From the IMG/VR virus record IMGVR_UViG_3300028800_000062, positions 62,001-126,000 of that record: 64,000 bases of DNA; one strand, given 5' to 3'. Of the stretch, positions 1-51,346 are shown piece by piece; position 1 is the stretch's first letter, and each line of letters opens with the position of its first letter. Below the pieces are notes generated by a model, which was not told the DNA's origin, ran no database searches, and was given only the letters and a program-made list of their open reading frames with translations. Source of the stretch: a virus. The position numbers and the translations under genes were made by a program.

Positions 1-336
1 GAGGATGTCAAAGCCAAGATCATTCAGGAAGAAGGCCTAGACTACCACGATTTCAATATCTTCGACGACCGCGCGGCGACACTGTGGCGCAAACCTTACC
101 TGGACGGCGCCGTACGGGAACTGACTGAGGGGAACAACAAATCCGTGGAAGACCTACGCCAGGCTGTGGAGAATATGATGCTGGCCGGCGGATCTAAGGA
201 GTCGGAAGTGCGGATCACGTCCCTCAGTTCCCGCAAGCAGCGCCAGAACCTGAAAATACGAGTGGAAGAACAACCGGATGAAGACATCCTGCGGGATGTG
301 CGTCGGAATCCGGAGGCTTACCTGAATCAGAACTAG
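1..336 (+). CDS. Hypothetical protein, 3' end only
   Basis: The reading frame is open from the first base to the TAG at 334-336, so this is the last 111 residues of a gene that begins outside the window. An in-frame GTG at 145 is not needed as a start because coding-like sequence continues upstream. The protein is charged and hydrophilic with no membrane segment. I do not recognise a family. It lies 17 bases before the secreted beta-helix gene on the same strand and probably belongs to the same transcript. Confidence 0.7.
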   Translation, partial: EDVKAKIIQEEGLDYHDFNIFDDRAATLWRKPYLDGAVRELTEGNNKSVEDLRQAVENMMLAGGSKESEVRITSLSSRKQRQNLKIRVEEQPDEDILRDVRRNPEAYLNQN

Positions 337-353
337 TCTTGGAGATTATTCCT

Positions 354-3299
354 ATGTATAAGACGTTTCTTTTGATGATCTTCACCACTATTTCGGTCTT
401 TGCCCAGTGCCCGGCAGGCACGGTGAATGTAAAACTGCTGCCAGGCTTCTGGGCTTGCGTGCCTTCCGGATCTGTAGGGTCAAAGTCGACACCTCCTCCA
501 GTAATACCTCCCGCGTCCATGACTTCCGCGGCTGATGCCGCCTACTTGTCCAAAGGCAACAACGCTGTCGTACGAACGGTGCAGTCTAAACTGTCGGATA
601 TCTATAATCTTGCGGATTACGGTGGGGTCTGTGACGGAACGACGGACAACACTGCGGCTTTCTCCAATGCGATCGCGGCCGTGGTGGCAACCGGCGGTGG
701 TCAACTGCAGCTTCCGTCCGGAACTTGTATGAGCGGAACGATCAACCTGCCGGAAGGTGTGGCATTTGCAATGGTAGGCCAGGGCGTGGACGCAACGACG
801 ATCAAGTTGAAGAACGGCGTGAACGCAGACCTGATTACGCAGGCGGACTTCGGTGCTTTGACAGGGTCGGACACCGCGGTTGGATTATTCCGCGTGAAGT
901 TGTCGGCAATGACGCTGGACGGTAACAAAACACACCAAGCCGGCACGTCCTGGGTACTGCGGACCTACGGGCACGGCAACTATTGGTCGGACCTGGTGAT
1001 CCAGAACGGATTGACCGGAGGTAGATATAGCGAGTGGGCTTTGGACGCGTCGTTCTCAGCGCCGGCTAACGATCTGGAAGACTCATACACCAACGTGAAG
1101 ACGATCTTCAATGGAGTCACGCAGGCACTCTCGACCGTAACACTCACGTTTAACGCCACTTATGGGAGTGGTTACACGCACTTCATCACGATCGGTGCGA
1201 ACACGTACTCATACATTCAGCAATTGAACGACACCTCGGCGACAATCGCCCAGGCGTTATTGAGCTTGATCACTGATCGGAACGCAACGGCTACGGCGAG
1301 TGGACAGACTGCGATTGTGCTGACGGCCGCGGCAAACAGTGGCGCAACGGTGAGCGTATCGGCTTCAGACGGTAATGCAGGTGGTAGTCTGATCGAGAGT
1401 CAGTCCGGGGACGGGTTTCTGTTTCGCGGACCGCATGACTCGGTGTTTCAGGACTTCATCAGTTACGGCAACACAGGATGGGGCCTGCACAACCAGACCA
1501 GCTCGACTTATAACGGCGGAGGTCTGCACTTCTCCCATCTCAATGTTTACATGAATACGCTGGGCGGCGCTTACAACGAAGACGGAATGGTGTGCAATGA
1601 TTGTGCGCTGACCACGGCGACAGGACTGGGGCACTTGATCGCGCAGTATTCCGGATCTACTACGATCACGGCGGGAACCTGGGCCGGGCCTGTCGGGTTT
1701 GAGTGCCGGAACGCGTCGGACAGTTTGCAGGGGATTGTGGTGAACACTACAGTGGATGGAATGTTCCTCAACGGCTGCGAATACTCGCGTATCGACGTGA
1801 CTACTTTTCAGACCAATAGCCCAATGTTCCGAGTGAAGTCGTCGGCAACTAATAACACCATCATAGTGAACGGAGAGAGCACCGCAAGCACTGTGTTGTT
1901 CGATCCGTCAGGGTTAAGTGCCTTTCCCGCTACCAACTGCGTGCAGGTCAACGTCCATGGTCCGGCCGGATCCATGGCGCACAAGTATTATCAGCCCTGC
2001 ATAGACTCAGCTCTCCAAATCGATAATACTAATCAGTTTGTAGGTGTCAATGTAACTCCCATTTATGCACTGGATGTCCAGCCGCCGCAGCCCTCGAGCA
2101 TCACGTACGGCTTTTCAACAACCTGCACCGGATGTGCGACCGGTTACACGCACTTCATTACCGTAGGTAGCAGCACTTACACCCATATACAAGCGGGTGG
2201 GGACACTTCGGCGGGAATTGCCGCGGCGCTGTGCGCCTCGATCACGACGGCGCCGGACACGAACGCCACCTGCACGGTCAATAACAACTTTGTGATTCTG
2301 ACGGCGGCGAACAATAATCGCACGTATGTGGCGCTGAATGCATCCGACCAGGATGGGGTGGCAAACCTGTTCGAGAACCTAAGTGGCTATTCAACACCGG
2401 TTCGTGTTTCCAACCCGGCCCAGAATGCGGCATTGCTACTGGAACAACAGGGATCCACAAACTATCTGATTTCCGCGCAGGCAAACCTGACTAGTCCGGC
2501 ACAACTGCAATTGCAAGGTCCATCGAGTTCCGCGTTGCAGACCTTTAACATCCTGGGCAAGAACATTGGGTTCTACAATCAGGATGCCTCTAACGCCTGG
2601 TTGTCGGTGATGATCCAGGGTGGTTTGAACCAGGGAACCAACCCGTATTTGACGGTGCAAAGCAAGGCAGGCGCGGTGCAGTTCCAGATTACGTCGACAG
2701 GAGCGCTGCTCGCTAACACAAACGTCACCAGCCCCCAGTTCTGTATTCAGTCTAGTTGTATTAGCGCGTGGACCGCCGCGCAGATCACTAATGCCTTGGA
2801 TTCTACCCAGACTTATGCTAACCCTGCCTGGTTAACAGGTGTGACCTTCGGCGGCACGGTCCTGGGTTCCACCGGCGGCACGATTTATAACAGCGCCGGC
2901 ACGGGGGATTCCTTACTGGTATTGAGAAGCAGTTCCAGTCAGGCCGCGGACGGAAAGGGAATTCTGCAGATCCAGAATAGCGCGGGAAGTAAGATCGCAC
3001 AGATCAATTATGACGGAGGGTACTGGGAAGGTGACGGGACTAATTACAAATTCGCTTTCCAGACTTCTACTCTTGGACTGTCGAGCGATGCGGTATTTGC
3101 ATTCAAGAACGCGAACAATGCCTTTTCCGGAGCCTATGATTTAGGCTTCGTCCGAGGCACCGTAGGTGTGCTCAAGATCACGAACGGATCCAGCGGATAC
3201 GGGGCGGTCGATGCTTCAGGGTATAGTGCCTCTGGAGTGGCCGGAGTAACGTCCACAACCTGCACGCAGTGGACAAACGGTCTGTGCACTCACAATTAA
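354..3299 (+). CDS. Secreted pectate-lyase-like beta-helix protein (tail-spike type)
   Basis: 981 residues. I chose ATG 354, not the upstream in-frame TTG at 339, because GGAG at 341-344 sits at good spacing and the protein then opens with a Sec signal peptide (MYKTFLLMIF...SVFA, cleavage before Q). Residues about 84-110 (NLADYGG then DGTTDNTAAF) match the start of the pectate lyase superfamily 3 / phage tail-spike right-handed beta-helix fold, which usually binds or cleaves polysaccharide. Two copies of a roughly 80-residue module (about 259-340 and 581-667) share GYTHFITxG. The C-terminal third is fibre-like, Ser/Gly/Asn rich. Role inferred: carbohydrate-active surface protein. The signal peptide is odd for a virion component. 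Catalytic residues were not identified. Confidence 0.75.
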   Translation: MYKTFLLMIFTTISVFAQCPAGTVNVKLLPGFWACVPSGSVGSKSTPPPVIPPASMTSAADAAYLSKGNNAVVRTVQSKLSDIYNLADYGGVCDGTTDNTAAFSNAIAAVVATGGGQLQLPSGTCMSGTINLPEGVAFAMVGQGVDATTIKLKNGVNADLITQADFGALTGSDTAVGLFRVKLSAMTLDGNKTHQAGTSWVLRTYGHGNYWSDLVIQNGLTGGRYSEWALDASFSAPANDLEDSYTNVKTIFNGVTQALSTVTLTFNATYGSGYTHFITIGANTYSYIQQLNDTSATIAQALLSLITDRNATATASGQTAIVLTAAANSGATVSVSASDGNAGGSLIESQSGDGFLFRGPHDSVFQDFISYGNTGWGLHNQTSSTYNGGGLHFSHLNVYMNTLGGAYNEDGMVCNDCALTTATGLGHLIAQYSGSTTITAGTWAGPVGFECRNASDSLQGIVVNTTVDGMFLNGCEYSRIDVTTFQTNSPMFRVKSSATNNTIIVNGESTASTVLFDPSGLSAFPATNCVQVNVHGPAGSMAHKYYQPCIDSALQIDNTNQFVGVNVTPIYALDVQPPQPSSITYGFSTTCTGCATGYTHFITVGSSTYTHIQAGGDTSAGIAAALCASITTAPDTNATCTVNNNFVILTAANNNRTYVALNASDQDGVANLFENLSGYSTPVRVSNPAQNAALLLEQQGSTNYLISAQANLTSPAQLQLQGPSSSALQTFNILGKNIGFYNQDASNAWLSVMIQGGLNQGTNPYLTVQSKAGAVQFQITSTGALLANTNVTSPQFCIQSSCISAWTAAQITNALDSTQTYANPAWLTGVTFGGTVLGSTGGTIYNSAGTGDSLLVLRSSSSQAADGKGILQIQNSAGSKIAQINYDGGYWEGDGTNYKFAFQTSTLGLSSDAVFAFKNANNAFSGAYDLGFVRGTVGVLKITNGSSGYGAVDASGYSASGVAGVTSTTCTQWTNGLCTHN

Positions 3300-3312: not shown

Positions 3313-4722
3313 ATGAAGAACCTAGCCATACTGACCATGATCTTTGCAGGCGTCGCCTCCGCGCAATCTGCAGGCACCGCCTCCACGCAATGTCCTGCAG
3401 GCTCCAAACTGGTTGAGGTCCTGCGAGGCAGTTGGCAATGTACACCTCAGGCAAGCAGCGGAAAGAGCGCCAGCGCGCTTCCGGCAGCCCTTCCAACTTC
3501 TGTCATATTGGCTTCACGTACCAGCGCCACGGGATATGAACTCGCGGCCTGGGGAGATTCGTTGATTGCGGGCGGAGCTAATCAGACTGGATTGCAAGGA
3601 CCGCTGGCTACGCTACTGGGCCGGCCCGTCTATAACGGAGGCGTAGGGGGACAGACTTGTGCGCAGATCTCAGCCCGTATGCTGGCGGCAACAGACAAGA
3701 AGGGTCGCTTTGTTATTATATGGGCGGGCGTTAATGACTCCGGCAACAATTTCGCCACGGTGCCTGCTTGTATTGCCGGCATGGTTGCTTCCCTGGAGCA
3801 GCCTACCCGGTTCCTGGTAATCTCCCTGCTGCCGAACTCCGCCTGGGTCGGTACTTCCGCATTCACAGCCATGCAGGCCACAAATGCGGCTTTGAAGGCA
3901 GCCTATCCAAACAACTATTACGACGCGCTCGGGTACTTGCTCACGCAAGGCACCGGGACCGGACAGGACCAAATCGATGCGGCGGGTGGAATGACTCCGA
4001 CTTCGCTTCGCGCCGATGCCATCCATCCAACTACCGCGACCAATGTTCTATTGGCAAACCAGGTCGCCGCTTGGATTATAGCGCAGGATACACTGCAACT
4101 AGGCGCCGTACCGGTGTCCTCGATCAGCGACATCTTTGCCTCTCCGCCGGCACTGGGCGGAAATGTTCCACAGTCCGCCACACATACTCGCATGAACGTA
4201 CTCTCAGGTGGAACCTGGGACTACGGCACAGACCCCGCTACCGGCGGTACCGGGACCGGAATCGCGATCGGAACCAACATCGTCCCGGCGTATCACACAC
4301 TCACACTGGCGAGCAATTTGCTGGCTATGGGTGCCGGCGGCTTTACTCCGACAGACCCTATCGATATCCGGTCTTTCGGCGTGATCTCGATCGGTCAATC
4401 GAGCGGGTATGCCAACGTACTCAGCGCAGGACCCGGCAACACCATCCTAAAAGGCGCGGCCATCTACTTACAGGCTCCGGCCGGGACCAATATGCTTGGC
4501 ATCGGAACCGTCCGAGTATGCGTTGGACAGTCCTCGTGCTCAGTATCAGGCACAGGTCAGTTTGCCAACAAGGGAAACACGATTCGCTTTGCTGATGCGG
4601 CGCGCACGCCGGCCAGCAGTTCGGAAGCCTGCAATGCCGGCGAAGCATTCTTCGACGCCACATATTTGTACGTGTGCACGGCTACGAACACGATCAAACG
4701 CCTGACATTGACTGCTTTCTAA
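3313..4722 (+). CDS. Secreted SGNH/GDSL-family hydrolase with fibre-like C-terminus
   Basis: 469 residues, ATG 3313 preceded by AAGGAG. Signal peptide MKNLAILTMIFAGVASA. Residues about 75-245 carry the SGNH blocks: WGDSL with nucleophile Ser83, GGVGGQT as the glycine block, GVND with Asn141, and DAIHP with Asp235 and His238. This is the catalytic set of lipase/acetylesterase enzymes that often remove acetyl groups from polysaccharides. The C-terminal part (about 290-469) is low-complexity and fibre-like. The N-terminal CPAG...W.C pattern resembles the start of the preceding secreted protein, so the two may share an anchoring region. Likely role: deacetylation of a capsule, exopolysaccharide or cell wall. 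Confidence 0.78.
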   Translation: MKNLAILTMIFAGVASAQSAGTASTQCPAGSKLVEVLRGSWQCTPQASSGKSASALPAALPTSVILASRTSATGYELAAWGDSLIAGGANQTGLQGPLATLLGRPVYNGGVGGQTCAQISARMLAATDKKGRFVIIWAGVNDSGNNFATVPACIAGMVASLEQPTRFLVISLLPNSAWVGTSAFTAMQATNAALKAAYPNNYYDALGYLLTQGTGTGQDQIDAAGGMTPTSLRADAIHPTTATNVLLANQVAAWIIAQDTLQLGAVPVSSISDIFASPPALGGNVPQSATHTRMNVLSGGTWDYGTDPATGGTGTGIAIGTNIVPAYHTLTLASNLLAMGAGGFTPTDPIDIRSFGVISIGQSSGYANVLSAGPGNTILKGAAIYLQAPAGTNMLGIGTVRVCVGQSSCSVSGTGQFANKGNTIRFADAARTPASSSEACNAGEAFFDATYLYVCTATNTIKRLTLTAF

Positions 4723-4728
4723 AGTGTA

Positions 4729-7700
4729 ATGAATCCTCTATCTCAAGCCTTTCGAGCACTCGGACCGCGGGCAGCGACTGCGGCGGGTGCTCTAGCTGTG
4801 GCAGCTCCCTGGTTCCTCAAGAATGACGACCGGGGCTACCTGCAGACGGCGGCCTTCACCACTCCCCTGATCGCCGCCGGTTTCACGGCTCTTCCCGGGG
4901 CCATGTCCGGTGTCTGGAATATGTCTACAGAGATCGGACAACTCTGGAGCAACCGCGCCTTCCTGGGACAGGATTATCCGCAACTTCTGAAGGGCTATCG
5001 CCGGCAGGGAACTAGTGTGCGGCGGTCCATGCATAAATATGTGCAGGCTCAGGGACAAGACTGGTACGCATCCATCCGACCTACCCAGGAAGACTGGTCC
5101 GGCCAGGCATTCGATCTTCTCGGCAAATACCGCAACCAGGCGAAAGAACTGCGGCAGTCAGTGCACGGCCGCGGCGCCGGCGTCAGCGCGCGGGAGTTTC
5201 GGCCGCAGATCGAGCAGGATCTCAAGCATCGCATTCTATTGTCGCGGACTGTAGAAGAGGCCCGCATGGCGGGACTGACTCCGGAGAAGGCCGCGGAAAG
5301 AAGCCACCTGTTACAACCCAAACTGCGGTCCTGGGACCAGATTGAGCAAGTAGTCAAGGAGCACAGTGGGAACCAGGACTTCCTGCGGACTTTCGCCCGG
5401 CGCGCGCAGCGACTCGACGACTTGAACCTGGGCAAGCGGGTCTCCGGGGCGCAACTGCTAAAAACCAGTACCTACGAACGCCAGAACCTAGGTTTTGCAA
5501 TCATGCAGGCGCGCCAGGCCGAGAACGGCCATTTGCTGAAACGTCTGCAACTGGCGGAAGAAGCCATTCACAACAAGTGGATCCAGAAGGCGGATGTCAT
5601 TTATCAGGGCGAACAAGCGATAGGCCTGGAGCTGTTCAACCACCGGGGAAGATCTTTCAATTTGCCTCTGATTGGGAGTCAGGACAAGGTCGTCTCGATG
5701 GGGCCGGGGTGGAATCACCGAGGAACGTTTGCGCAGCTGTGGGATGAGAAGGGTATCCGTCTACCCGATATATCCGTGCTTGAAAACCTCAGCGATTGGA
5801 AGGACGCCAAACAGGCGGCCGTTTCCAGTTTCCAGTGGGGAGGTATCACCGATCGCACCGATACTGTCGATGCCGCCCTGCACGAGGACTTGAAAGGTAG
5901 CGTATCTCCTAAGTGGGCCCTGGCAGAGCGCAGCCTACGCGCCAATCCGGATCCGTTCGGAACGCACGCCGGTGGCAAGCGCTGGAAAGACCTGACAGAC
6001 GCCGAGAAGCACGCGGCGGAGATGTCCGCCATGGAGAAATACGATCTGACCAAGGTGGGCGGCGAGGGCGGCATCGCTTTCGGCAAGCTTGAGTCCCGCC
6101 TGGCGGAAGGCAATTCCATCGGTTTAGTGCCCTCGCCCACTCATCAGGATCCCGGTTACCGGTCATTCTCCAAGGACTTTTATATCGACCCGGAGAGTAT
6201 CAAAGACCTGGATAAGCCGCACCTCAGCTCGACGTTCTTCAAAGAGCAGCTGGGTGTCGAAGCTGGTGAAATGCCGGAGTTTTCCGCCCGATTCGGCGAG
6301 ATCACGCCGCAGGTCAAGTCCATGTACGGGGACATTCCGGCGGAGGCCGAGCGTGCGGCGCAGGAGGCCGTCAAAGAAGACCGCAGGTTCCTGTTGCAGG
6401 CCAAACGCGCGCATATCGATCACTTGCAAGACCTGGTGGAGAAGGGCAAGGGCGTAATCCGGCATCCCCAGGCGAGCAAAGATGTGATCGGAGATATCCA
6501 GCGGGACATCGAGCATTACAATCATCAGATCCGTTCTCTGAAGTCCAAGAAGTTGTCCCAACTGGAGATGCGCCAGCAGTTCGGAGCCACTCGGGAGTAC
6601 CTGGAGTTCCAGGGTGAACTGCAGAATAAGTTGCGTACAGCATTGGGTCCAGAGTATGAGACTCATCTGACAGGCTCCCTGCTCAAGCACATTCAGCGAG
6701 GAGCGGAAGCCACGGAAGCTGAGCGGGTTCTCGCAGGCCAGGTATCCCAACGCGTCCTGCGTGAATTGGTTGCAGATCCGCTGAATATCATTGCCGCCCG
6801 CGGTTACCAGACGCTAGGTGAAACGATCTTCAATACCGGCGATCGGCTGAGCGGCGTGAAGGGCATGCTAGACCGTAAGTTGAGTCTGTCAGAACTGTGG
6901 CAGGAGAAGGGCGCCGCCTTGCAACAGGGGGATGTCATTGGATTTGATGAGCATGGCAAACCCATCGCGGCGCGTACCGAGAGTGTGGTGCAGGACGTGG
7001 TTGGCAACGATGTTATCCTGCGCGAGCGCTTCGGCATTGCAGGCGCTAAGGGTGAAGGTCCTGGGGCTAAGGGTCTGTTCCACTCCGCCATTTATAACAA
7101 AGAGGACCTGCTCCCCAGACAGGTCCGGTTGAACAACCTGGTAACCGAGTTAACAGGTGTAGGTGGAGTTATTCCGGAACAGGTAGAAGGCCTGGCACTG
7201 GCTGAGTACTCCGCGTTCAAGACCAAGAATCCGATGGCCGATCTGCTCGAAGTCTCCGTGGATATTGCGGAACAACTGGTCAAAGGAAAGCATCTCAAAT
7301 CCGAACAGTTCCTGCAGGATTTGCAGAACAATCACTTCATCTATCGTAACGGCCGGTACGAGGAACAGTTTGCGGACGTATACCAGATGAGCCGGCAGGA
7401 TGCGGCACAGCGTTATTACGACCTGAGCAAGAAGGCGGAACATTATCTTGACGACGTGGGCAATGAGTCCGGTCACTTCGTGCTGGACGCCTTCCAACGC
7501 ACCACGGCTGCACAGCAACGGGCCGGACGCCAGACCGATTCACTTTCTCAATGGGTCTTTAAGAACTACCGGCAAGGCGCGGTTCGACTGTGGGATCACA
7601 CCCGCTTGAACCGCCCGGCACAAACCGGAGTCACCTATGACATGCTCTACGAAATGCAGCGCGCCGGGCATACCGAGGGAATGCGTGACATCTTCGAGAA

Positions 7701-9906
7701 CATCAGGTATCCGCAGGGCGATCCGGCTATGGCGCGCGAAGTCCAGAATTATCTGGCCGCCGGCGACTATGTGAACAAGCCCATAGGCGCAGCCTTGCAG
7801 CTCGATGAGATCGAGAATCTGGACTACCGCCTGTCGACGATAGAATCCCGCATGGGCAAAAGCGTCTTCAACCCGGAGTTTGCGCCCAATAACCTGTCGA
7901 TAGACCTGGGTGGCGTGCTGAAGGAAGTCAAACTGGGCGGCGAATCCGTCAATCTTCGTTACCTGCCGAAACTGGGGATGGACGCCTACAAAGGCGGCGC
8001 CAACGCTTATGGTTCCGGAGAGTGGGCGGCCAGTGAGCTCGAGCACGGTATGCATGACGCTTTGTCGGCTGCCGCCGGCATCGACTGGGCCAATCCGGAA
8101 TCGCATCAGATGAACAACCTGCGCACTAAAGTCTCCGAATACATGGAGAAGCTTTCTACTGAGTTAGGAGGAAAGGACGGTGTGCTGCGCGCGGATATGA
8201 CGCATCGCGCTGGAATCTACGGCGTAGCGGCGGAGCGTTCCAGCAGCGTAGGGGGCACGGCGCCATTCGAGATGAGCATTCCGAAGAGTATGGCCGAGGG
8301 CATCGAAGACCAGGCCCTGCGCACGGACGTTCTGAGCGGTAACGGGTACGCGGCTCTATTCCGCGATCCCAACTCCGCGGCTATGTATATGCGCGTGCGG
8401 GTAGATCCCACGGCCCATCTTGATCCGAACGAGTTCGGCATTCACTCCAGGGTGCGATCCGCCTTCCAGATGGACCATGACAAGGATTGGATGAAAGCAC
8501 TGTTTGTAACCAAGCAGGGCGCCCTTGAAGAAGCCCGGAAGGCAATTACAGATCAAGCCAGTCCTCAGTGGCAGAACCTGTTGGCCGCTGAGATGTTTCA
8601 AGGTACCGAGAATCCGCAGAATATCACCGGCCGGGCCTTTGCCGCCGAGGCGGAAGAGAAGGGTTGGAGCGGAGCCGGCAACTATCTGGACAACCTGCGC
8701 AAGGGATTATCGGATAGTGTGGAGGCCTCCAGGGCCCAGAGTTTCCGGGCGCGCTTATTCCACGGGTACACCGGTCATTTCTCGAACATGACGACCCGGC
8801 TGCAACTGATGTTGGCGAACAGCCCGGACTTGCTACCCGGGGACCGGGATTATTCAGCCTTCTCTTCCCTGTTATTCGATGTCAGGCAAACAGCTATTTC
8901 CGCTGGCAAGGGGAAGATGGGTGTGGGCGCGGAGCCTCTCGCAGTGCTGGCGAATCTGAATAAGTCGATCAATCAGGGCGAGGCAGGGTTGGATCTGTTT
9001 CAGCAGTCCATGAGTATGGTTGCTCGCGGCACGGGATTCACCGGTATCTACGACCAGGCCGCCGCGGATGTTACAGGTGTGGGTCTGGAAGAGGCCCGCA
9101 ACATTCTGGGAAACGAGAGTTTGCAGTTTGGGGATGAGGCCAATAACCTACTGCTATGGACCAAGGGCGGGCACGGCCGGGAAAGCATGCGGAAGCTGCT
9201 GGCGAGTCCCAATAACCTGAAGGCCAAACGCCTGACATCGTACCTGACCAGGGGTGAAATCAGCGTAGATGATGCGCTGGAGATGTCCCAGATACGGGAC
9301 ATGTCCCCGGAGATGATTGGCGGCATTCTGAAACAGCGTTCCTCTTCCGGAGTCCTGCATAGCATGGCGGAATCCGTTGCCGGAGAATCGGGCGGCCGGA
9401 TGTCCGATCGGGTCTCCCGCACGCTGGGCATGCTCAATGAAGGTGCCCGGGAAGGCTGGTCTTCCGCAGGCAAGACTCTGAAGCCGGCGGGCAAAGTGTT
9501 GGCCGCTGGGTTGGGATTAGCGGCGATCGCAGGCGTCATGACCGCGACCGCATCCAGCAACAAATACCGGCCGGAAGAAGAAATAGGAGTGAACGACCAG
9601 ATCCCCGGTGAGCCGGTTGCAGGATCTCGGGCGAGTGTCAATCCGAAACGCACGGAACAACCTGCGCGACCCTCCCCGCGGACCATCGTGGCGGCCAATA
9701 TGCGGCATGCGGTTGACCTTGAGATCCGTGCGAAGACTCCGGACCACGCCTCCTCCGTGGAAATGGCCAAGAATATCCAGCGGTTTACCGATACCGGCGG
9801 CGTTTCGAATGTGACCGTACAGCACTCCGGCGGCTGGCAGAAGAGCGCCAGCAAGTTACGCATGCAGGAACGGATTCGGGAAGAGTTAGATAAGCACCAA
9901 AGTTAG
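4729..9906 (+). CDS. Giant protein with two RNA-polymerase-like motifs (putative virion RNA polymerase)
   Basis: 1725 residues, ATG 4729, six bases after the preceding stop. Two stretches resemble the catalytic barrels of multisubunit-type RNA polymerases. At 769-796, FGIAGAKGEGPGAKGLF followed by EDLLP resembles the beta-subunit GDKMAGRHGNKG...EDMP region, with Lys774 and Lys781 in the place of the two catalytic-site lysines. At about 1215-1260, YAALFRDPNSA then FQMDHDKDWM resembles the beta-prime RxP...DxDGD block, with Asp1249, Asp1251 and Asp1253 as a DxDxD metal site (Gly replaced by Lys). The order beta-like then beta-prime-like in one chain fits crAss-type virion polymerases, where the motif is also altered. 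Hydrophobic stretches lie near 15-60 and 1590. The neighbour is a tail hub/transglycosylase, which suits an ejected protein. Alternative: a tape-measure or internal virion protein. Confidence 0.55.
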   Translation: MNPLSQAFRALGPRAATAAGALAVAAPWFLKNDDRGYLQTAAFTTPLIAAGFTALPGAMSGVWNMSTEIGQLWSNRAFLGQDYPQLLKGYRRQGTSVRRSMHKYVQAQGQDWYASIRPTQEDWSGQAFDLLGKYRNQAKELRQSVHGRGAGVSAREFRPQIEQDLKHRILLSRTVEEARMAGLTPEKAAERSHLLQPKLRSWDQIEQVVKEHSGNQDFLRTFARRAQRLDDLNLGKRVSGAQLLKTSTYERQNLGFAIMQARQAENGHLLKRLQLAEEAIHNKWIQKADVIYQGEQAIGLELFNHRGRSFNLPLIGSQDKVVSMGPGWNHRGTFAQLWDEKGIRLPDISVLENLSDWKDAKQAAVSSFQWGGITDRTDTVDAALHEDLKGSVSPKWALAERSLRANPDPFGTHAGGKRWKDLTDAEKHAAEMSAMEKYDLTKVGGEGGIAFGKLESRLAEGNSIGLVPSPTHQDPGYRSFSKDFYIDPESIKDLDKPHLSSTFFKEQLGVEAGEMPEFSARFGEITPQVKSMYGDIPAEAERAAQEAVKEDRRFLLQAKRAHIDHLQDLVEKGKGVIRHPQASKDVIGDIQRDIEHYNHQIRSLKSKKLSQLEMRQQFGATREYLEFQGELQNKLRTALGPEYETHLTGSLLKHIQRGAEATEAERVLAGQVSQRVLRELVADPLNIIAARGYQTLGETIFNTGDRLSGVKGMLDRKLSLSELWQEKGAALQQGDVIGFDEHGKPIAARTESVVQDVVGNDVILRERFGIAGAKGEGPGAKGLFHSAIYNKEDLLPRQVRLNNLVTELTGVGGVIPEQVEGLALAEYSAFKTKNPMADLLEVSVDIAEQLVKGKHLKSEQFLQDLQNNHFIYRNGRYEEQFADVYQMSRQDAAQRYYDLSKKAEHYLDDVGNESGHFVLDAFQRTTAAQQRAGRQTDSLSQWVFKNYRQGAVRLWDHTRLNRPAQTGVTYDMLYEMQRAGHTEGMRDIFENIRYPQGDPAMAREVQNYLAAGDYVNKPIGAALQLDEIENLDYRLSTIESRMGKSVFNPEFAPNNLSIDLGGVLKEVKLGGESVNLRYLPKLGMDAYKGGANAYGSGEWAASELEHGMHDALSAAAGIDWANPESHQMNNLRTKVSEYMEKLSTELGGKDGVLRADMTHRAGIYGVAAERSSSVGGTAPFEMSIPKSMAEGIEDQALRTDVLSGNGYAALFRDPNSAAMYMRVRVDPTAHLDPNEFGIHSRVRSAFQMDHDKDWMKALFVTKQGALEEARKAITDQASPQWQNLLAAEMFQGTENPQNITGRAFAAEAEEKGWSGAGNYLDNLRKGLSDSVEASRAQSFRARLFHGYTGHFSNMTTRLQLMLANSPDLLPGDRDYSAFSSLLFDVRQTAISAGKGKMGVGAEPLAVLANLNKSINQGEAGLDLFQQSMSMVARGTGFTGIYDQAAADVTGVGLEEARNILGNESLQFGDEANNLLLWTKGGHGRESMRKLLASPNNLKAKRLTSYLTRGEISVDDALEMSQIRDMSPEMIGGILKQRSSSGVLHSMAESVAGESGGRMSDRVSRTLGMLNEGAREGWSSAGKTLKPAGKVLAAGLGLAAIAGVMTATASSNKYRPEEEIGVNDQIPGEPVAGSRASVNPKRTEQPARPSPRTIVAANMRHAVDLEIRAKTPDHASSVEMAKNIQRFTDTGGVSNVTVQHSGGWQKSASKLRMQERIREELDKHQS

Positions 9907-9919
9907 TGAGTTCACCATT

Positions 9920-12900
9920 ATGAGCCTTTTACTGAGTGACACGCCCGGAGAAAACGACGGCGGCTATTTCCGCATTGGCGATGTGATCTTAAGGATTCCA
10001 CCGGAGTCCATATCCACCAACAAGGTCACGGATAACGAAGAGGTGTCTACCTTACGTGCCAAGTACCCCATGTACGTCAAAGATGGTCATTCGCGCTGGG
10101 ATGTGACTGTGACCTGGAAGGCTTTGGTCACTAACGACGGAGGCACTCCGGATTACACTCAGTGGGTTTCGCTGCAGCGGATTCTGGCCATGTTCAAAGC
10201 CGCACCGTTTGTGCAGGTGGAGAGCGGGCACCTTCGGCAACTGGTGATGGCGGATCCTGAATTAGACCGGGCCGACCGGACTGCCCGCATGGCTTTCGCG
10301 TTGCGCCAGCTTCGAGTGGACACTCTCCCTGATATTCCACAGGGTCTACAGTGCACCCTGACTATGAGCTGGTTCAATTACCTGCCCTATTCGACGGATT
10401 TCGGATATTTAGACCCCAATGGCCAGCCGGAAGACGCCACCCAATACACCCAGTTCACCGACTATATCGATACCTGGTTGAGCGAGAACCTGCAGGGGCC
10501 TCCGGATCCATTTGACGGCCGGCCGGATCTCTCGAAGAAGTTCGGCTATCCGGACCTATCATTGTGGAACCAGCAAACCCCCGGTACAGTAAAGTTGCAT
10601 TGGCGCCAGTATTGTGTGGTTCCTATCGACGACCAGACCGCACCATCAGCTTCAGCTCCAGCGGCGCCTTCTCAGCCAACCGGTATTCCCAGCTCCAAAC
10701 TGTCTTCCGGACCTGCTGATATTCGTGCGAAGATCACCCAGGCGGCACAAGCCCAGGGAGTGGATCCGGCGTTGGCCCTCGCTGTTGCCTACCACGAGAG
10801 CCGCTTCAATCCCACCGCCAAGAATCCGAACAGCAGCGCTTATGGGGTATTTCAAATCATTCCCCGCTGGCATCCGGAGATCAATCAGTATCCCAACAAA
10901 GGCGTGCAGGACGTCGACTCCAACATTCAGGTGGGAGTTGGGTATTTGAAACAGTGCCTCAACCACTACAACGGAAACCAGAAAGAAGCCTTGTGGGCCT
11001 ACAACCAGGGAGAGGGCGCTGTAGATAACTTCCTGCGCGGTAAGACCTCCGCTTTACCCAATGGGACCGTTCAGTATGCGGACGCCGTCCTGCAGATGGC
11101 CTACCAGGGAACTCCCCAAGTAAAGAGCACGCCGGTGGCGGATGCATCGCCGCTGAAGTCTGCGGCACCTGTACAGGCGGCCGCGCCCAGCACGGATACT
11201 TGGCCGGAGCCGGTAGAAACCAAGGTTAACAACCTGATTGCTAAGGGCTGGTGGGCAGATCACAACACGGAGCGGGCCGTATTCCTGTACAAACCGCATC
11301 AGATCGAGTTTCAGGATGAGGAACACGGCGGCGGTCCCAACCTGGATTGCTGTTACCCGGTACAGATATCCGTGGTATTCGTCAACAAGATTGCCGTGCA
11401 GCCGCTGCGCGGTTATCAGTATCCGGTGATGCAACACCTGGGCCCGGCCGGGACTATGATTTCGGTAGGATTTCTCTCCAACGCCCTGCCGGCGGGCGAT
11501 TCCGAACCGGTACACTCCGGGCCGGCTAAGATGGCAGGCATGTGCTCTGCACTCGAAGATCAGTTCCATAGGCTGCAGGGGGAGTGGCGCTCGATTTATG
11601 CTATCCACCGCATGCAGGCTGTGATCGTCGAGAACCAGGTTCTGAACGCGCTGGGTATCTACGGCACCCTGGTCAACAACTTCAATAGTGAGACGCTGCC
11701 AGAGTCGGCTTCCCTGGCGCAGGCGGCCCTGAGCCTGGTGCAGTACGAGAATGTATTCGAGGAGATCGGATCTTATAGGGTCAACGGGCTAACAGGGGCC
11801 AGTGCAGCCGTGTTGAACCAGATCATGACCGACGGCACCTTGGCCACGGCCAGCAAGGGTCCCGGGGGCGATGCTTATAAACCGCTGACGCAGTATCAGT
11901 CCGATAAGCAATCGCAAAATCCCGCGCCGGTGATGCAGATGATGCAGGACAGCCGCTATCAGACACCGGTAGTTCCCATGCCGGTAAAGCTGACTGCCGA
12001 TCAGCAGCAGACGCTGGTTCAGGCCATTGCTTCGAACAAAACTCAGGCGTCCGCGAGCACCGCGGCAGACTCCACCCTGGTTGCCCAGAACATGGCAGGC
12101 GTGCCTACTTTCAACGCTTCAGGCACCAGTCTGACAGGCGGAGGGATTACGCAGGTGGATCCGGAGCTGGCCTCCCGCATTCAGTCCGGGTCTTTCTCAT
12201 ATAACGATTACTTCCAGTTTGTCCATTCGCCGGGGCTCTCCGGCAATGCGTCGATCCAGTCCCTCAATCAGAGCGTCAATCAGGTCATTGCCAACCAGGT
12301 GCCCGCCGACCAGGCGCCCATGACCAAGCTATACCAGTCGGTATTCGACTATCAGAGTAAGTACAACGCTGCCTTTGTGGCGGCCGTAGGTCAGATGCAG
12401 TTCGATCCAACAACTGCCAGTAAATTCACCAACGCGGTAAATCCCAACGGACCCGGAAGTGACGATGCGAATAAGAACCACGGATCCTACCGGGACCTGG
12501 GGCTGAAGACCCTGTCGCTGGGGAACGGACTGGACTTCAATCCAGGATACTATTTCACCAATAACGAGAAGAAGCAACGTCAGGCCTTGCGCGATCAGTT
12601 GACATACGCCGTGTCGGCTTCCAATGCTGCGCTGAGTTATTTCAACAAGGCGACCTCCAATGCCTCCTCGGCGCCGGCTGACAATTCGATACAAAACAGC
12701 GATTCGCAGAATCCCGCCGCGATGAACGTCAATACGGAGATGATTCTGGAGCGCACGGTGACCCCTTTCAAGTCCATGAAGCGGGCCTTTCCGACCTTCA
12801 AGCTGTTTCTGGTGGAAGAAGACAACACCGGACCTTTCTTCATGTTCGACAACTTCTACTGCTACTCCTCAGTGCTGAACATGGAAATCATCCGTTACCA

Positions 12901-15307
12901 GGACAAGCCGGATATGGCCGTGATTCAACTGACCAACCTGGCGAATCTACTATCGCACAAAGTGTTCGATTCGAGTGCGTCCGGCAAGCAGGAATACAAT
13001 TTGTCTAATCTGCAGGATGTACCTGGAAGCAGTGTAGGAGGGCCGGTAACCGGAGGCATGGGCGGCGCGGTGCAGGCGCGTAAGACGCCCGCCGGAGTGG
13101 TGCTTGAACAGGAAAAGATCCTGAATCTGTCCAAAGGCTATAATGCACAGGTGAAGGACGTCCCGCTGCAGTACTACCCCCTGCAGACTGGGGCCAAGAT
13201 CCAGATCCGCATGGGTTACACCAACAACCCGGATTTGCTCTATCCAGTATTCACTGGAAAAGTAACTCAGATCGAAGGCGAAGACATCCTGACCATCACC
13301 GCCCAGAGCTTCATGCTGGAGTTGATGGATAAGGATCACAATGAGCTGCGCAGCGACGGGTACTTTAATCTGAGCACGGTTTCCGAGACCATCCGCAACT
13401 GGGGCGTGCCTACGAAAGGGGCGGCCTACGGGGGTTGGACTTTCCTGCGGGATTCCGGAACTGCAGGGTGTGTCATGTCAGACGTGCTGAAGTGCAGCGG
13501 AGCCCGGCACTTTGGACACTGGCAGGTAAACCCGGTGCAGAAGAATACGCCGTTCATGCGCGGTTTCGGCTGGATTGAGTTGACGGCCGCGGCCGCCGGC
13601 GCCCTGGGCGCTTCCAAGATCCAGTCCGTAACGCAAGCCTTGCAGGACCGGAGAGATGAGAATATCCTCATTAACCAGCTGATCAGTACGGACGGCACCG
13701 TAGCCCAGCAGCGCATCAAGCGCGCCGATCAGTTTGAGAAGCCGGCGGAGATCTTCGCCTCGGTCTATGGGATTCCAGACGATCCTGAGATCACTCCCTG
13801 GACGATCCTGAGAGACATTTCCCGCCGATACCCGGAGTATCGTCTGCTGGAGCGGCCCTACGGGTTCCCCTACGGTTGCGACGGAACCCTGGTCTTTGCG
13901 CATCCGAACGACCTGTATATCACGCGTCCCAAGATGGCCAACAGCGCTGAAGCTACGGCCATGAACATCACCAATAACGGCAAGTTTGAAGATTGGTTCA
14001 CACCCGTGCAGCGCGCCAAGATAGTAGCCCTGCCCGGCATGAGCGACCTGGCCGCCGATGCCGCCCGTTATATTCTGATGAATGTCACCAACCCGTCCGG
14101 CAGTAAAGCCCCGGCCACGTCCAACCGGTATACGTCGGCGGAGCGTCTCGGGGAACAGACTGCCAGTTGGATCGATCAGGGAGGGTTGACCACTTTCAAT
14201 GCTATTTTGAACGGATATGCCGACTATGCCGCACAGAAGACGGCATTGTCTAAAGTGGTCCAGATCTTCGAGTTCGGCCTCGGCGACCTGCAGGGGCATG
14301 CTAATGACCTGCGCATGACGGTGAGAGCCATTCAGAACGACGCGATCAGCCACATCAACCTGCCGGCGGATCGGCAGAACAGCACAGCCTCGGACCCGTC
14401 TTCGCCCGCCTACCTGCAACCTGTGCGCAAATGGCACGTGATCAGCACCGACAATATCATCCACAACGGCATCACCATCAACGAGCAGATCTTCAACGCG
14501 GTGCGCATCAACAAGGACATTATCAAGGCCAATATTAACATTCCGGACTACTACACCCGGGTGCTCGACTGCAATAAGCTGATCATCGAGCCGGACCGTA
14601 ACCTGGGGGTTGCGGGAGGTCCCGGAACGCTCGAACGGGCCTACGCTCAGAGTTTCCTGCGCGAAGAGGTCGGTAAGATGTACCGGGGAGAGCTGGTAAT
14701 CACCGGCGTGCCGGAAATGGATCCGGGCGACGGGATTATGCTGTTGGATTCCACCACAGGTACCGCGGGCCCACTTGAGATCGAAAGCGTGATCCATTCC
14801 TTCGATCAAGAAATGGGGTATATCACGGTGGTCCGGCCGCGGGCCATGGTGGTGACTAATGAAGCCACCACGCTTGGCATTATTGCGGCCTTCAACAATC
14901 TGAACTTGTTTCAAGAGCTGGGCGCATTGGGACGGGACCTCTCTTCAACACCTCAGGCTGCTGCAGCCACTGCGGTAGGCGCCACAGCCGCTGTAACCAC
15001 AGCTGGTCTGGCGGTCTCCACAGCTGTGGCTGCGGGTGTATCGTTGACCGGCGTGGGATTGGCGGTGGTGGTCGGCATGTTGTTGACCTACGTCGTGTTG
15101 GCCGACATGAAGCAGGAATCTCTGCCGCTCATCGTGGCGCCGCTAAACCGTTATGGACGTCCCTGGGTGGGAGGCCTGAATGGATGGGCTCTCACGGATC
15201 TGCACACCTACGTGGAGAAGCGTTTCCAACAGTTCTGGAACTTCGAGATCGCGCCCACTTTGCAGGGATTCAAGAACCTCAAAGGCATCGTCGACAGCTA
15301 CACCTAG
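9920..15307 (+). CDS. Giant tail hub / virion-associated lytic transglycosylase
   Basis: 1795 residues, ATG 9920; only a weak ribosome site is visible. Residues about 255-375 form a soluble lytic transglycosylase domain: catalytic Glu293 in AYHESRFNP, then AYGVFQIIP and ALWAYNQG, the classic order. The N-terminus (RIGDVILRIPP...) and the segments around LYPVFTGKVTQIEGEDIL (about 1108) and the C-terminal PGDGIMLLDS look like phage tail-hub/baseplate protein. A hydrophobic stretch lies near residues 1680-1730 (AVGATAAVTTAGLAVSTAVA and VVGMLLTYVVLA), consistent with membrane insertion during injection. Role: peptidoglycan cleavage as the tail crosses the envelope, probably together with delivery of the preceding giant protein. 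Confidence 0.75.
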   Translation: MSLLLSDTPGENDGGYFRIGDVILRIPPESISTNKVTDNEEVSTLRAKYPMYVKDGHSRWDVTVTWKALVTNDGGTPDYTQWVSLQRILAMFKAAPFVQVESGHLRQLVMADPELDRADRTARMAFALRQLRVDTLPDIPQGLQCTLTMSWFNYLPYSTDFGYLDPNGQPEDATQYTQFTDYIDTWLSENLQGPPDPFDGRPDLSKKFGYPDLSLWNQQTPGTVKLHWRQYCVVPIDDQTAPSASAPAAPSQPTGIPSSKLSSGPADIRAKITQAAQAQGVDPALALAVAYHESRFNPTAKNPNSSAYGVFQIIPRWHPEINQYPNKGVQDVDSNIQVGVGYLKQCLNHYNGNQKEALWAYNQGEGAVDNFLRGKTSALPNGTVQYADAVLQMAYQGTPQVKSTPVADASPLKSAAPVQAAAPSTDTWPEPVETKVNNLIAKGWWADHNTERAVFLYKPHQIEFQDEEHGGGPNLDCCYPVQISVVFVNKIAVQPLRGYQYPVMQHLGPAGTMISVGFLSNALPAGDSEPVHSGPAKMAGMCSALEDQFHRLQGEWRSIYAIHRMQAVIVENQVLNALGIYGTLVNNFNSETLPESASLAQAALSLVQYENVFEEIGSYRVNGLTGASAAVLNQIMTDGTLATASKGPGGDAYKPLTQYQSDKQSQNPAPVMQMMQDSRYQTPVVPMPVKLTADQQQTLVQAIASNKTQASASTAADSTLVAQNMAGVPTFNASGTSLTGGGITQVDPELASRIQSGSFSYNDYFQFVHSPGLSGNASIQSLNQSVNQVIANQVPADQAPMTKLYQSVFDYQSKYNAAFVAAVGQMQFDPTTASKFTNAVNPNGPGSDDANKNHGSYRDLGLKTLSLGNGLDFNPGYYFTNNEKKQRQALRDQLTYAVSASNAALSYFNKATSNASSAPADNSIQNSDSQNPAAMNVNTEMILERTVTPFKSMKRAFPTFKLFLVEEDNTGPFFMFDNFYCYSSVLNMEIIRYQDKPDMAVIQLTNLANLLSHKVFDSSASGKQEYNLSNLQDVPGSSVGGPVTGGMGGAVQARKTPAGVVLEQEKILNLSKGYNAQVKDVPLQYYPLQTGAKIQIRMGYTNNPDLLYPVFTGKVTQIEGEDILTITAQSFMLELMDKDHNELRSDGYFNLSTVSETIRNWGVPTKGAAYGGWTFLRDSGTAGCVMSDVLKCSGARHFGHWQVNPVQKNTPFMRGFGWIELTAAAAGALGASKIQSVTQALQDRRDENILINQLISTDGTVAQQRIKRADQFEKPAEIFASVYGIPDDPEITPWTILRDISRRYPEYRLLERPYGFPYGCDGTLVFAHPNDLYITRPKMANSAEATAMNITNNGKFEDWFTPVQRAKIVALPGMSDLAADAARYILMNVTNPSGSKAPATSNRYTSAERLGEQTASWIDQGGLTTFNAILNGYADYAAQKTALSKVVQIFEFGLGDLQGHANDLRMTVRAIQNDAISHINLPADRQNSTASDPSSPAYLQPVRKWHVISTDNIIHNGITINEQIFNAVRINKDIIKANINIPDYYTRVLDCNKLIIEPDRNLGVAGGPGTLERAYAQSFLREEVGKMYRGELVITGVPEMDPGDGIMLLDSTTGTAGPLEIESVIHSFDQEMGYITVVRPRAMVVTNEATTLGIIAAFNNLNLFQELGALGRDLSSTPQAAAATAVGATAAVTTAGLAVSTAVAAGVSLTGVGLAVVVGMLLTYVVLADMKQESLPLIVAPLNRYGRPWVGGLNGWALTDLHTYVEKRFQQFWNFEIAPTLQGFKNLKGIVDSYT

Positions 15308-46114: not shown

Positions 46115-47314
46115 TTAATTAGTGATGGCTAGGGAAATTGCAGTGGGAATCTCTTCCGTGATTACTCGTTCTCCCAGAGCTGGAGTGTAGTTCGCAATCA
46201 GGAAGCGGCTATAGCGGGTGCCGTCTGTACGGCTGCGCCAGATGAGTACATTGCCCAACGGACGGTTCGGGTCTCCCACATCTAGGATCCTCGAGTCTGA
46301 GTTCAGGATCTGGTCGGCGATATCGTTCAGCACCAAGGTGTCACCGATAGCCAGATTGTTGATGTAGTTCTCGACAGCGGAAACCGCGGCCGCTACGATG
46401 GAGGTCTGGTCACTCTGACTGGCAGATGCCGTCAGGGTCAGGGTGGTCGCCAGGCTGATCCCCACCAGATCCGGCGCCACGGCAATACCCGTGAGCGGAA
46501 AGGCGACCGTGTTGTTGATTGCCTGCTGTACACTCTGTAACAGCGCCGCCGAACCATCCGAAGCAATGCCGTAGACATAACAGGTGAACGTGCCCGCGGC
46601 CGGCGCAAACACTACGTCCTGAATCCCAGGAATCTGCAGGATCTGAAAGCGCAGCGCCGCCTCATTGGCTCCATTCTGCGCCTGCAGCTTTAATCTGATC
46701 CGATACCGGTAATCATCATCGAGCTCGGCATCGCGCCCGCCCACAATTCCATAATTGTTGGTCACCAACAGCGACCCATACCGGCTCTCGGTATAGTTGG
46801 TGAAATTCGACTGCGAGAAGATCCCGGAGGCCGCGTTGCCCGCCGCGCCCGAATACAGAGCCGTGGCACTAAAGGACATCGAGCTGGCCGCCGCCGGCAG
46901 CGTCATAGGGTCCGCGATATACACCGGCCCGTTCACCCCCGCCGCCGTATAAATGCGCACCCCCGAAGGAATCACAATGTCCTGGCCACTGTTGATTGAA
47001 CCAAAAGTCCCATTGCGGACAAACCACTCAAAGTTCTGATCGCCAATATCCACGCTGGCAGTCTGCTGCGCCAGGCGCGGCACACCGAAGATCTCCCCGA
47101 TCAAATCCAGGCTGGTATCGGTGGCAAAAGGCAGAAGCGACTGGGCAATATTCAGGAACTGGCGGTTCTCCAGCTCGGCCAGCTCGTTGGCCACGATGTC
47201 GCCGAACGCCCGCGCCTTGCCTCCCGGCGCCAGCTGCCGGATGCCGGTGGCGGAGAGGGCAGCCAGGATGTCGGATTGGTAACCGGAATAGTTCTTCGGA
47301 GACTGAATAGCCAT
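46115..47314 (-). CDS. Baseplate J-like protein (gp47/XkdT family)
   Basis: 399 residues from ATG 47314, preferred over an upstream in-frame ATG at 47452 that overlaps the next gene. Recognisable family layout: TDTSLDLIGEIFGVPRL, then an IVIPSGVRIYTA strand, the AGNAASG turn, and GGRDAELDDDYRYRIRL followed by NGANEAALRF and IPGIQDVVF. Baseplate J forms the arms of the wedge that trigger tail contraction in myophages and also occurs in some siphophages. This is the clearest structural landmark of the minus-strand block. Confidence 0.85.
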   Translation of the reverse strand: MAIQSPKNYSGYQSDILAALSATGIRQLAPGGKARAFGDIVANELAELENRQFLNIAQSLLPFATDTSLDLIGEIFGVPRLAQQTASVDIGDQNFEWFVRNGTFGSINSGQDIVIPSGVRIYTAAGVNGPVYIADPMTLPAAASSMSFSATALYSGAAGNAASGIFSQSNFTNYTESRYGSLLVTNNYGIVGGRDAELDDDYRYRIRLKLQAQNGANEAALRFQILQIPGIQDVVFAPAAGTFTCYVYGIASDGSAALLQSVQQAINNTVAFPLTGIAVAPDLVGISLATTLTLTASASQSDQTSIVAAAVSAVENYINNLAIGDTLVLNDIADQILNSDSRILDVGDPNRPLGNVLIWRSRTDGTRYSRFLIANYTPALGERVITEEIPTAISLAITN

Positions 47315-47322
47315 AAGAGCGC

Positions 47323-47811
47323 CTATTGCCCCATGATGGGAATGATCTGCACGGAGGATCCGAGATCGGTGAATACCTGGGTTGAAATGATGCTGGCCCC
47401 GTTCAGCGTGTTCCAGGTGGGTGGCAACTGTGGGCAGCTGTTGGTCTGGCAATAGGTCTGTAGGGCAGGTACTCCAATCAATCGAATGGAAGCTTGCATC
47501 AGCAGATCCTGTATCGAGGAGAATTTGGCTTTAACCACGAAGGAGCCATCAGCTTGTTGTATCTTCCAAGTTTGCCCGGTAACGAATGACTGCAGGGCAC
47601 TAACTTGATAGTTTGGCAACGGCTGAATCACCACAATTGGAACCGGCGCCGGGGTTGGGGTGCGCATATCGAGTGTGATCATGGTGACGGTGCCTGGTTG
47701 AAATGTCTGGCAGGTCTGCGCCCCGGTGCCTAAAGACCAGCATACGTTCACTGGTTGTTGAGCCAGCATCGTGATTGCACCGGCCAAAAGTAAGAGAATG
47801 ACTTTCTTCAT
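47323..47811 (-). CDS. Small secreted protein
   Basis: 162 residues from ATG 47811 with GAGG upstream. Signal peptide MKKVILLLLAGAITMLA before Q. The mature part is a mixed alpha/beta chain with two Cys pairs (CWSLGTGAQTC, CQTNSC). No family recognised. It lies between baseplate J and the S74 fibre and shares the secretion-signal style of the plus-strand proteins. Confidence 0.65.
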   Translation of the reverse strand: MKKVILLLLAGAITMLAQQPVNVCWSLGTGAQTCQTFQPGTVTMITLDMRTPTPAPVPIVVIQPLPNYQVSALQSFVTGQTWKIQQADGSFVVKAKFSSIQDLLMQASIRLIGVPALQTYCQTNSCPQLPPTWNTLNGASIISTQVFTDLGSSVQIIPIMGQ

Positions 47812-50647: not shown

Positions 50648-51346
50648 CTAAGACGGCTTCTCGTCCTTTGCTAGTATAGCGGCGGGCTCTATCAGGAGCT
50701 GGCGGTAGGGAAAATAATCGATGTTGGGCAAGCCGTTTGTGGTGAGCGACATAACGGCATTGAAGTTCTCCGTGAAGCGGTTGGCGTGCGCGCCAGTGCC
50801 GCGGGGATACTGGCGCAGACGCCAACGATTCCCGGGAAGGGCCTCCTGGTACAAGCCTCCGGCGTTGTAAGCACAGGCGGCATAAACCGGGTCAAACCCG
50901 GTAATAGGTTTTAATTGCAATAGATAGGAGGCACAAGCCTCCAGGGAATTGGTGGGATTGATCAGCCAGGCGCGGTCGATCTTCGGGTTGTGCATGACGG
51001 AACGCGCGGTGCTGATCAGGAGCTGGCAAAAGCCGGCGCTGATCCGGCTGGGAGTCTCCTCATCGGAAATATAGCCCGGCTCTTCGCGAATGGAGGTTTC
51101 CGGATGAATAGGGGCGCCCTCGGTCAACGCGCAGGCCGCCAACAGTTCGAATGGAACGCGCTTGTCATTGGAGACTTTCCCAAACAAGGGAGCATAGAGA
51201 TCCGTGTAATGCTTGGCGCGCTGTTGCACGGCGGCGCCGGGCAGTACCAAACCCAAACCTTCAATCTCTAACCCCTGCATTCCCACTCTCCAGCGCACAC
51301 CGCCGGGAAACTTCGCATGGAATTCATTCAAGTTGACGTCAGGCAT
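50648..51346 (-). CDS. Endolysin, lytic-transglycosylase-like
   Basis: 232 residues from ATG 51346, preceded by GGAG; a GTG six bases upstream is the alternative. Residues about 60-175 match the lytic transglycosylase pattern: catalytic Glu76 in ACALTEGAPI, ISAGFCQLLI in the place of the GxxQI strand, and YAACAYNAGGLY for the AYNAG block. No signal peptide. Together with the adjacent XhlA-like protein it forms a lysis pair. About 110 bases without a gene separate them. Confidence 0.72.
   Translation of the reverse strand: MPDVNLNEFHAKFPGGVRWRVGMQGLEIEGLGLVLPGAAVQQRAKHYTDLYAPLFGKVSNDKRVPFELLAACALTEGAPIHPETSIREEPGYISDEETPSRISAGFCQLLISTARSVMHNPKIDRAWLINPTNSLEACASYLLQLKPITGFDPVYAACAYNAGGLYQEALPGNRWRLRQYPRGTGAHANRFTENFNAVMSLTTNGLPNIDYFPYRQLLIEPAAILAKDEKPS

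Follow-up and report, generated by a model that had tools for sequence, protein, structure and literature searches.

A giant protein of 1725 residues, encoded immediately before a baseplate hub gene, is probably a highly divergent RNA polymerase with two barrels on a single chain, housed in a tail or ejection protein. The phage to which it belongs is likely contractile-tailed and likely carries the protein in its virion. The gene lies in a window of 64,000 bases that covers positions 62001-126000 of a virus record of 146742 bases. A profile match, the gene position and five invariant residues support placing the protein in a family of hub-adjacent giant phage proteins, and the beta-prime-like catalytic segment of this family is homologous to cellular RNA polymerases, on the evidence of sequence and of the fold of one relative.

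The 1725-residue protein and its motifs

The region 4729-9906 on the plus strand is a single uninterrupted frame. The sequence-only reading of this DNA had described a beta-like motif region followed by a beta-prime-like one on a single chain, with all three aspartates of the metal motif kept, and a script check of the frame located both where this reading had put them and in that order. The beta-like motif comprises GDVIG at 734 (G734, D735), K774, K781 and EDLLP at 792-796 (E792, D793, P796); the two lysines are presumably the counterparts of K1065 and K1073 in the E. coli beta subunit. The beta-prime-like motif comprises R1212 and P1214, followed by D1249, D1251 and D1253 of DHDKD at 1249-1253. 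The usual form of the catalytic motif is DxDGD, and in DHDKD the glycine is replaced by lysine. The same reading had placed the gene next to the tail hub, which agrees with the domain and family matches of the downstream protein (Table 1).

Table 1. Features of the 1725-residue protein and its flanking giant genes (positions in the window).
Feature	Position	Strand	Basis
C-terminal end of upstream 1655-aa protein (record C1:57372-62330)	1..330	+	81% identity to L001 P0003
Candidate single-chain two-barrel virion RNA polymerase, giant protein of 1725 aa	4729..9906	+	Frame, alignment, profile
Beta-like (DPBB-B-like) motif, residues 732-797, GDVIG ... K774-x6-K781-G ... EDLLP	6922..7119	+	Pattern and spacing in 8/22 rows
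Beta-prime-like (DPBB-A-like) catalytic segment, residues 1206-1277	8344..8559	+	20-relative model; hhalign
DHDKD, residues 1249-1253, predicted Mg-binding triad	8473..8487	+	Three Asp invariant in 22/22 rows
Possible membrane segment, hydrophobic, near C-terminus, residues about 1586-1609	9484..9555	+	Kyte-Doolittle
C-terminal tail, residues 1660-1725, like tail of KLEB27-3 gp034	9706..9906	+	Alignment by eye, unscored
Baseplate hub of 1795 aa that contains an SLT (lytic transglycosylase) domain	9920..15307	+	PF01464 E 9e-23; phrog_20474 E 4e-39

The protein contains a single DxDxD, namely DHDKD, against 0.30 expected from composition. The combination RxP-(30..50)-DxDxD occurred in 1.2% of shuffles of the protein, a figure for a motif chosen after looking, and taken alone it is only mildly unusual against chance. 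The motifs are lifted beyond chance by their conservation, since every motif residue is kept in L001, the single close relative in IMG/VR (72% identical, on a contig that stops before any hub), and R, P and the three D are invariant in 22 aligned rows.

Direct searches with the protein gave no match in Pfam at E<=5, none in PHROGs at E<=1, nothing significant by sequence in the PDB (one chance-like match, E 0.32), nothing useful by tblastn against phages and no direct match to any RNA polymerase model. The Pfam and PHROG searches also served as the check for a tape-measure family; the tape-measure-like protein of the locus lies upstream. Across the whole record, no match was found to the RNA polymerase families Rpb1_1, Rpb2_6 and Rpb1_2 or to the RdRP family, for which the model detects only 1 of 14 controls; the T7-type RNA polymerase model detects none of the controls. 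Kyte-Doolittle windows of 19 residues scoring above 1.5 begin only at residues 1586-1591.

Gene neighbourhood

The hub gene directly follows 4729-9906, and its product is related to gp035 of Bacillus phage KLEB27-3 ('putative baseplate protein'), which is in turn related to ME3_37 of Acinetobacter phage ME3 ('baseplate hub protein'). The upstream 1655-residue protein corresponds to the exonuclease-like/tape-measure-like protein P0003 of L001 (L001:2806-7779). P0003 has tail-module counterparts in three phages, the match extending over 39% of its length for MTATph1, 26% for KLEB27-3 and 23% for ME3, and it starts with an apparent DnaQ-like exonuclease motif, seen by eye and unscored. A fibre-like gene (339-3299, +) and a GDSL esterase/tail-fibre-like gene (3313-4722, +) separate the upstream giant from 4729-9906; L001 has a counterpart of the latter and a 157-residue ORF in place of the former.

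A second block of tail genes contains a baseplate J-like protein (46115-47452, -) and an endosialidase-chaperone-domain protein (47819-50104, -). The phage is probably contractile-tailed because of this baseplate J protein. The product of 51339-52442 (-) weakly resembles region 4 of sigma-70 (PF04545, E 2e-4, 21.3 bits, below the 24.1 cut-off), and a sigma factor is annotated in KLEB27-3 as well. If the phage encodes its own sigma factor alongside a virion polymerase, this would point to transcription being handed over to the host polymerase.

Relatives and gene order before the hub

Scans of genome collections found no relatives, and two viral scans with pieces of the 1725-residue protein recovered the L001 contig alone. 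Viral scans queried with the window hub or with KLEB27-3 gp034 gave no relatives, and a viral scan with ME3_36 recovered ME3 alone. Two hub-based scans yielded 5 and 26 loci. Loci of one contig were merged, as were three sets of different contigs (L022-L025, L032-L033 and L044-L045), all three by coinciding match and motif coordinates rather than by full comparison, leaving 27 distinct phage records that include the window, L001, ME3, KLEB27-3 and MTATph1.

Upstream of the hub, RxP followed 37-45 residues on by DxDxD was present in 24 of the 27 records. ORF boundaries are available for 13 of them (the window, L001, ME3, KLEB27-3, L016-L019, L035, L036, L038, L041 and L044), and in 12 of the 13 the motif lies within the giant ORF immediately preceding the hub ORF, the exception being L001, in which the hub is off the contig. 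In the remaining 11 the motif lies in an open stretch upstream of the hub match. At the motif, KLEB27-3 gp034, annotated as a structural protein, reads ..NRYPTINQSTIQAM..KADYDGDFLS and has a sub-threshold match to Pfam RNA_pol_Rpb1_2 (E 0.015); a sub-threshold match to the same family is found at the motif in L016 (E 0.091).

RxP..DxDxD was not found before the hub in MTATph1, L020 and L032/L033 (3/27 records), all of which show an apparent exonuclease motif by eye. In Moorella phage MTATph1 (L007, 9487-16843), an exonuclease-motif giant is followed by a transposase and then by the hub. The locus contains no DxDxD codon pattern, and the polymerase part has possibly been lost in this phage.

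Conservation and active-site variation

An alignment of 790 residues around DxDxD was made from 22 of the 24 motif records; L037 and L038 were recognised later and omitted. Most of the 22 rows are pairwise 10-20% identical, and the only invariant columns are R1212, P1214, D1249, D1251 and D1253. The same five residues were invariant in further alignments, which were also anchored on DxDxD. Because of this anchoring the conservation of DxDxD is partly selected; that of RxP is unselected.

The fourth position of DxDxD is glycine in 15 rows, serine in four (L039, L041, L043 and L047), glutamine in ME3 (DHDQD) and lysine in the 1725-residue protein and L001. L035 has the RDPN form of the 1725-residue protein, yet DSDGD, and is an intermediate. 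If the family members are polymerases, DxDGD, DxDSD, DHDQD and DHDKD would form a natural active-site series that bears on how far a two-barrel site can drift. The catalytic motif of crAss-like gp66 is altered.

Profile links to RNA polymerases

Built from all 22 rows, a profile of the beta-prime-like segment (A11, 115 residues) gave 117 PDB matches at E<=10, the best 60 of which were all RNA polymerases. With the 1725-residue protein and L001 left out and the 20 relatives realigned (A13), all 43 of 43 PDB matches at E<=1 were RNA polymerase chains (best E 4.2e-5). Where typed, these were largest, beta-prime, Rpb1- or Rpo1N-type subunits, and phiKZ and AR9 chains were included.

When the same 20 rows were extracted from the 22-row alignment and made into a model, the 1725-residue protein came out on top among 517 window ORFs, with a match at residues 1206-1277 (E 2.6e-4) and none of 2000 shuffles scoring as high. 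A stricter 14-row model, from which L035, ME3 and the four rows with DxDSD were dropped, gave the protein 3.5 bits and rank 2 among the window ORFs, with 6 of 2000 shuffles scoring as high, and hhalign placed the beta-prime-like segment at 1207-1276 with P 6.8e-4 and a probability of only 27%. To judge from these results, the protein is genuinely but only thinly tied to the family core, by way of intermediates. Over the whole length, hhalign gave no significant match of the protein to gp034, ME3_36 or a five-member profile, and that profile recovered no polymerase from the PDB.

The proposed beta-like barrel

A search pattern for the beta-like motif, written after inspection of the family, consisted of G[DE]xxG then K-x6-K[GT], 515-550 residues before DxDxD. 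It was found in 8 of 22 rows, namely the 1725-residue protein (spacing 515), L001, L017 (spacing 516), L018, L029, L031, L034 and L040; the other 14 rows do not fit. Among 200000 shuffles, G[DE]xxG..K-x6-K[GT] arose twice at 500-560 residues before DxDxD and 24 times anywhere in the preceding 660 residues. A beta-like profile recovered no polymerase, beta subunits included, from the PDB (the best match was an oxidoreductase, E 0.017), and hhalign of a beta-like segment from six relatives fell best at 730-738, where it covers GDVIG only (P 0.025, probability 1.9%). From motif and spacing, a second barrel in the 1725-residue protein is likely but unproven. The RNA polymerase likeness proposed for both regions in the sequence-only reading is supported for the beta-prime-like segment, by the family profile and the L017 fold described below, whereas the beta-like half is a matter of motif and spacing, with no significant profile match.

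Structure prediction

Structure prediction, suggested earlier as a check on the two barrels, gave no usable fold for the 1725-residue protein itself (AlphaFold2 from two sequences, pLDDT 32.6) and a polymerase-like result for its relative L017. For a 730-residue stretch of L017, AlphaFold2 with 21 sequences reached a mean pLDDT of 66.6, and ten-residue means over 191-540 ranged from 54 to 92, mostly above 65. The model begins at residue 1326, 16 residues past the GD motif (1310), and the second barrel is outside its reach. Foldseek returned 331 PDB matches at E<=0.001, and every one of the best 50 of the 331 was an RNA polymerase complex, with probability 1.00, E between 1.2e-5 and 1.2e-4 and a query TM-score of only about 0.2. 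The best VIA comparison had Z 11.5 over 352 residues at 5.8 A, a range in which helical models can mislead. The uniformly RNA polymerase identity of the listed matches is the stronger point.

Proposed role and alternative explanations

In the proposed mechanism, the beta-like barrel (about residues 730-800) would supply two lysines, K774 and K781, and the beta-prime-like barrel (about 1206-1277) would supply the three Mg-binding aspartates of DHDKD. The protein would be synthesised late, packed in the tail beside the hub, and enter the cell with the phage DNA; the delivered polymerase would then transcribe the first phage genes before the host polymerase is needed. The second barrel, packaging, injection, activity and early-gene role are what we infer for this protein, with packaging, injection and activity suggested by gene position and by the examples of P23-45 gp96 and crAss gp66. 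One giant protein may be both polymerase and tape measure, because orf146 of Bacillus phage 0305phi8-36 has been called a tape measure and the C-terminal tails of the 1725-residue protein and gp034 align by eye.

The protein could instead be a catalytically dead descendant of a polymerase that keeps the fold as a structural tail or ejection protein, such as a tape measure or scaffold. This is judged unlikely. It would accommodate the change of DxDGD to DHDKD here, to DHDQD in ME3 and to DxDSD in four rows, the complete absence of the motif from 3 of 27 records, and the assignment of orf146, the positional equivalent, as a tape measure, which in the account of PMC2147016 came mainly from a correlation with tail length. 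A dead scaffold, however, would not need the three aspartates, the arginine and the proline that are invariant in 22 of 22 rows at mostly 10-20% identity, and L001 has kept them too. A working polymerase that is made after infection and acts in the cell, and is not a virion component, seems improbable. A late operon can hold a polymerase gene, but this gene sits between a tape-measure-like protein and the hub, and its KLEB27-3 counterpart gp034 is annotated as a structural protein. Least credible is a chance resemblance, in which an ordinary tape-measure or fibre protein happens to carry an acidic loop. The shuffle frequency of RxP..DxDxD, the non-significant whole-length profile comparison and the bare detection of the protein by the 14-row model would fit such a coincidence, which is largely excluded by conservation in divergent syntenic relatives, by the 20-row match and by the PDB matches of the family.

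A divergent virion-carried polymerase is the preferred reading of the 1725-residue protein. For the family, the chances appear roughly even that it represents a hidden, widespread group of virion RNA polymerases in large contractile-tailed phages, sited between the hub and a tape-measure-like protein and in many cases joined to, or encoded close to, a DnaQ-like exonuclease. Tail proteins would then bring both transcription and nuclease functions into the cell, and the glycine of DxDGD would have been replaced in some lineages, including this phage. The hub-adjacent family was undescribed in the literature found on KLEB27-3, 0305phi8-36, ME3 and virion or two-barrel RNA polymerases, and members may be among the viral two-barrel RNA polymerases surveyed in PMC10770324 (Supplementary Data 4). 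If the proposal is true, a polymerase of their own in the tail would be a common plan of large contractile-tailed phages, beyond P23-45, crAss-like and N4-like phages, and one ejection machine would combine an exonuclease-like domain with a polymerase. Furthermore, giant proteins now annotated as hypothetical, structural or tape measure would become testable enzymes.

Comparison with known systems

Several kinds of phage RNA polymerase have been described. YonO-like single-chain enzymes of 0305phi8-36 and c-st and multisubunit enzymes of group 1 are covered in PMC7824862, and beta-subunit proteins of another jumbo phage in PMC4870245. The phiKZ and AR9 RNA polymerases, chains of which match the family profile, are split over several subunits, in contrast to the one chain here. 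As described in PMC2147016, orf99 of 0305phi8-36 is a QDE-1-like RNA polymerase of the RdRP family encoded in the right arm, unlike the tail-adjacent 1725-residue protein.

Within the family, KLEB27-3 gp034 occupies the same pre-hub place and has RxP..DxDxD, with DYDGD and an N-terminal exonuclease-like motif (by eye) as features of its own. ME3_36, a hypothetical protein, shares place and family and has its own motif, DHDQD. The 'tape measure' orf146 of 0305phi8-36 would be a positional equivalent, because the two 0305phi8-36 proteins flanking orf146 have annotated homologues in ME3_35 and ME3_37; according to PMC2147016, only the last 60 residues of orf146 aligned with its counterpart.

The closest parallels in design are found outside the family, and they are set beside the 1725-residue protein by description; neither gp96 nor gp66 (6VR4) chains were among the matches listed for the family profiles, Foldseek or VIA. 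The gp66 protein of crAss-like phage phi14:2 (PDB 6VR4) is likewise a single-chain two-barrel polymerase, and PMC10770324 describes virion polymerases of crAss-like phages as fused to large proteins, but the phage group and the gene neighbourhood are different. In Thermus phage P23-45, gp96 is described in the same source as a virion RNA polymerase fused to the tape measure protein that transcribes pre-early genes. The likeness lies in a giant tail protein that would house a DxDxD-bearing polymerase and in the transcription of the first genes proposed to occur during DNA entry (PMC10770324). P23-45 has an extremely long tail of non-contractile type, and its DFDGD occupies residues 779-783, towards the N-terminus of a 5002-residue protein (PMC10770324), whereas the phage studied here has a baseplate J protein and DHDKD at 1249 of 1725 residues, in a protein encoded directly before the hub.
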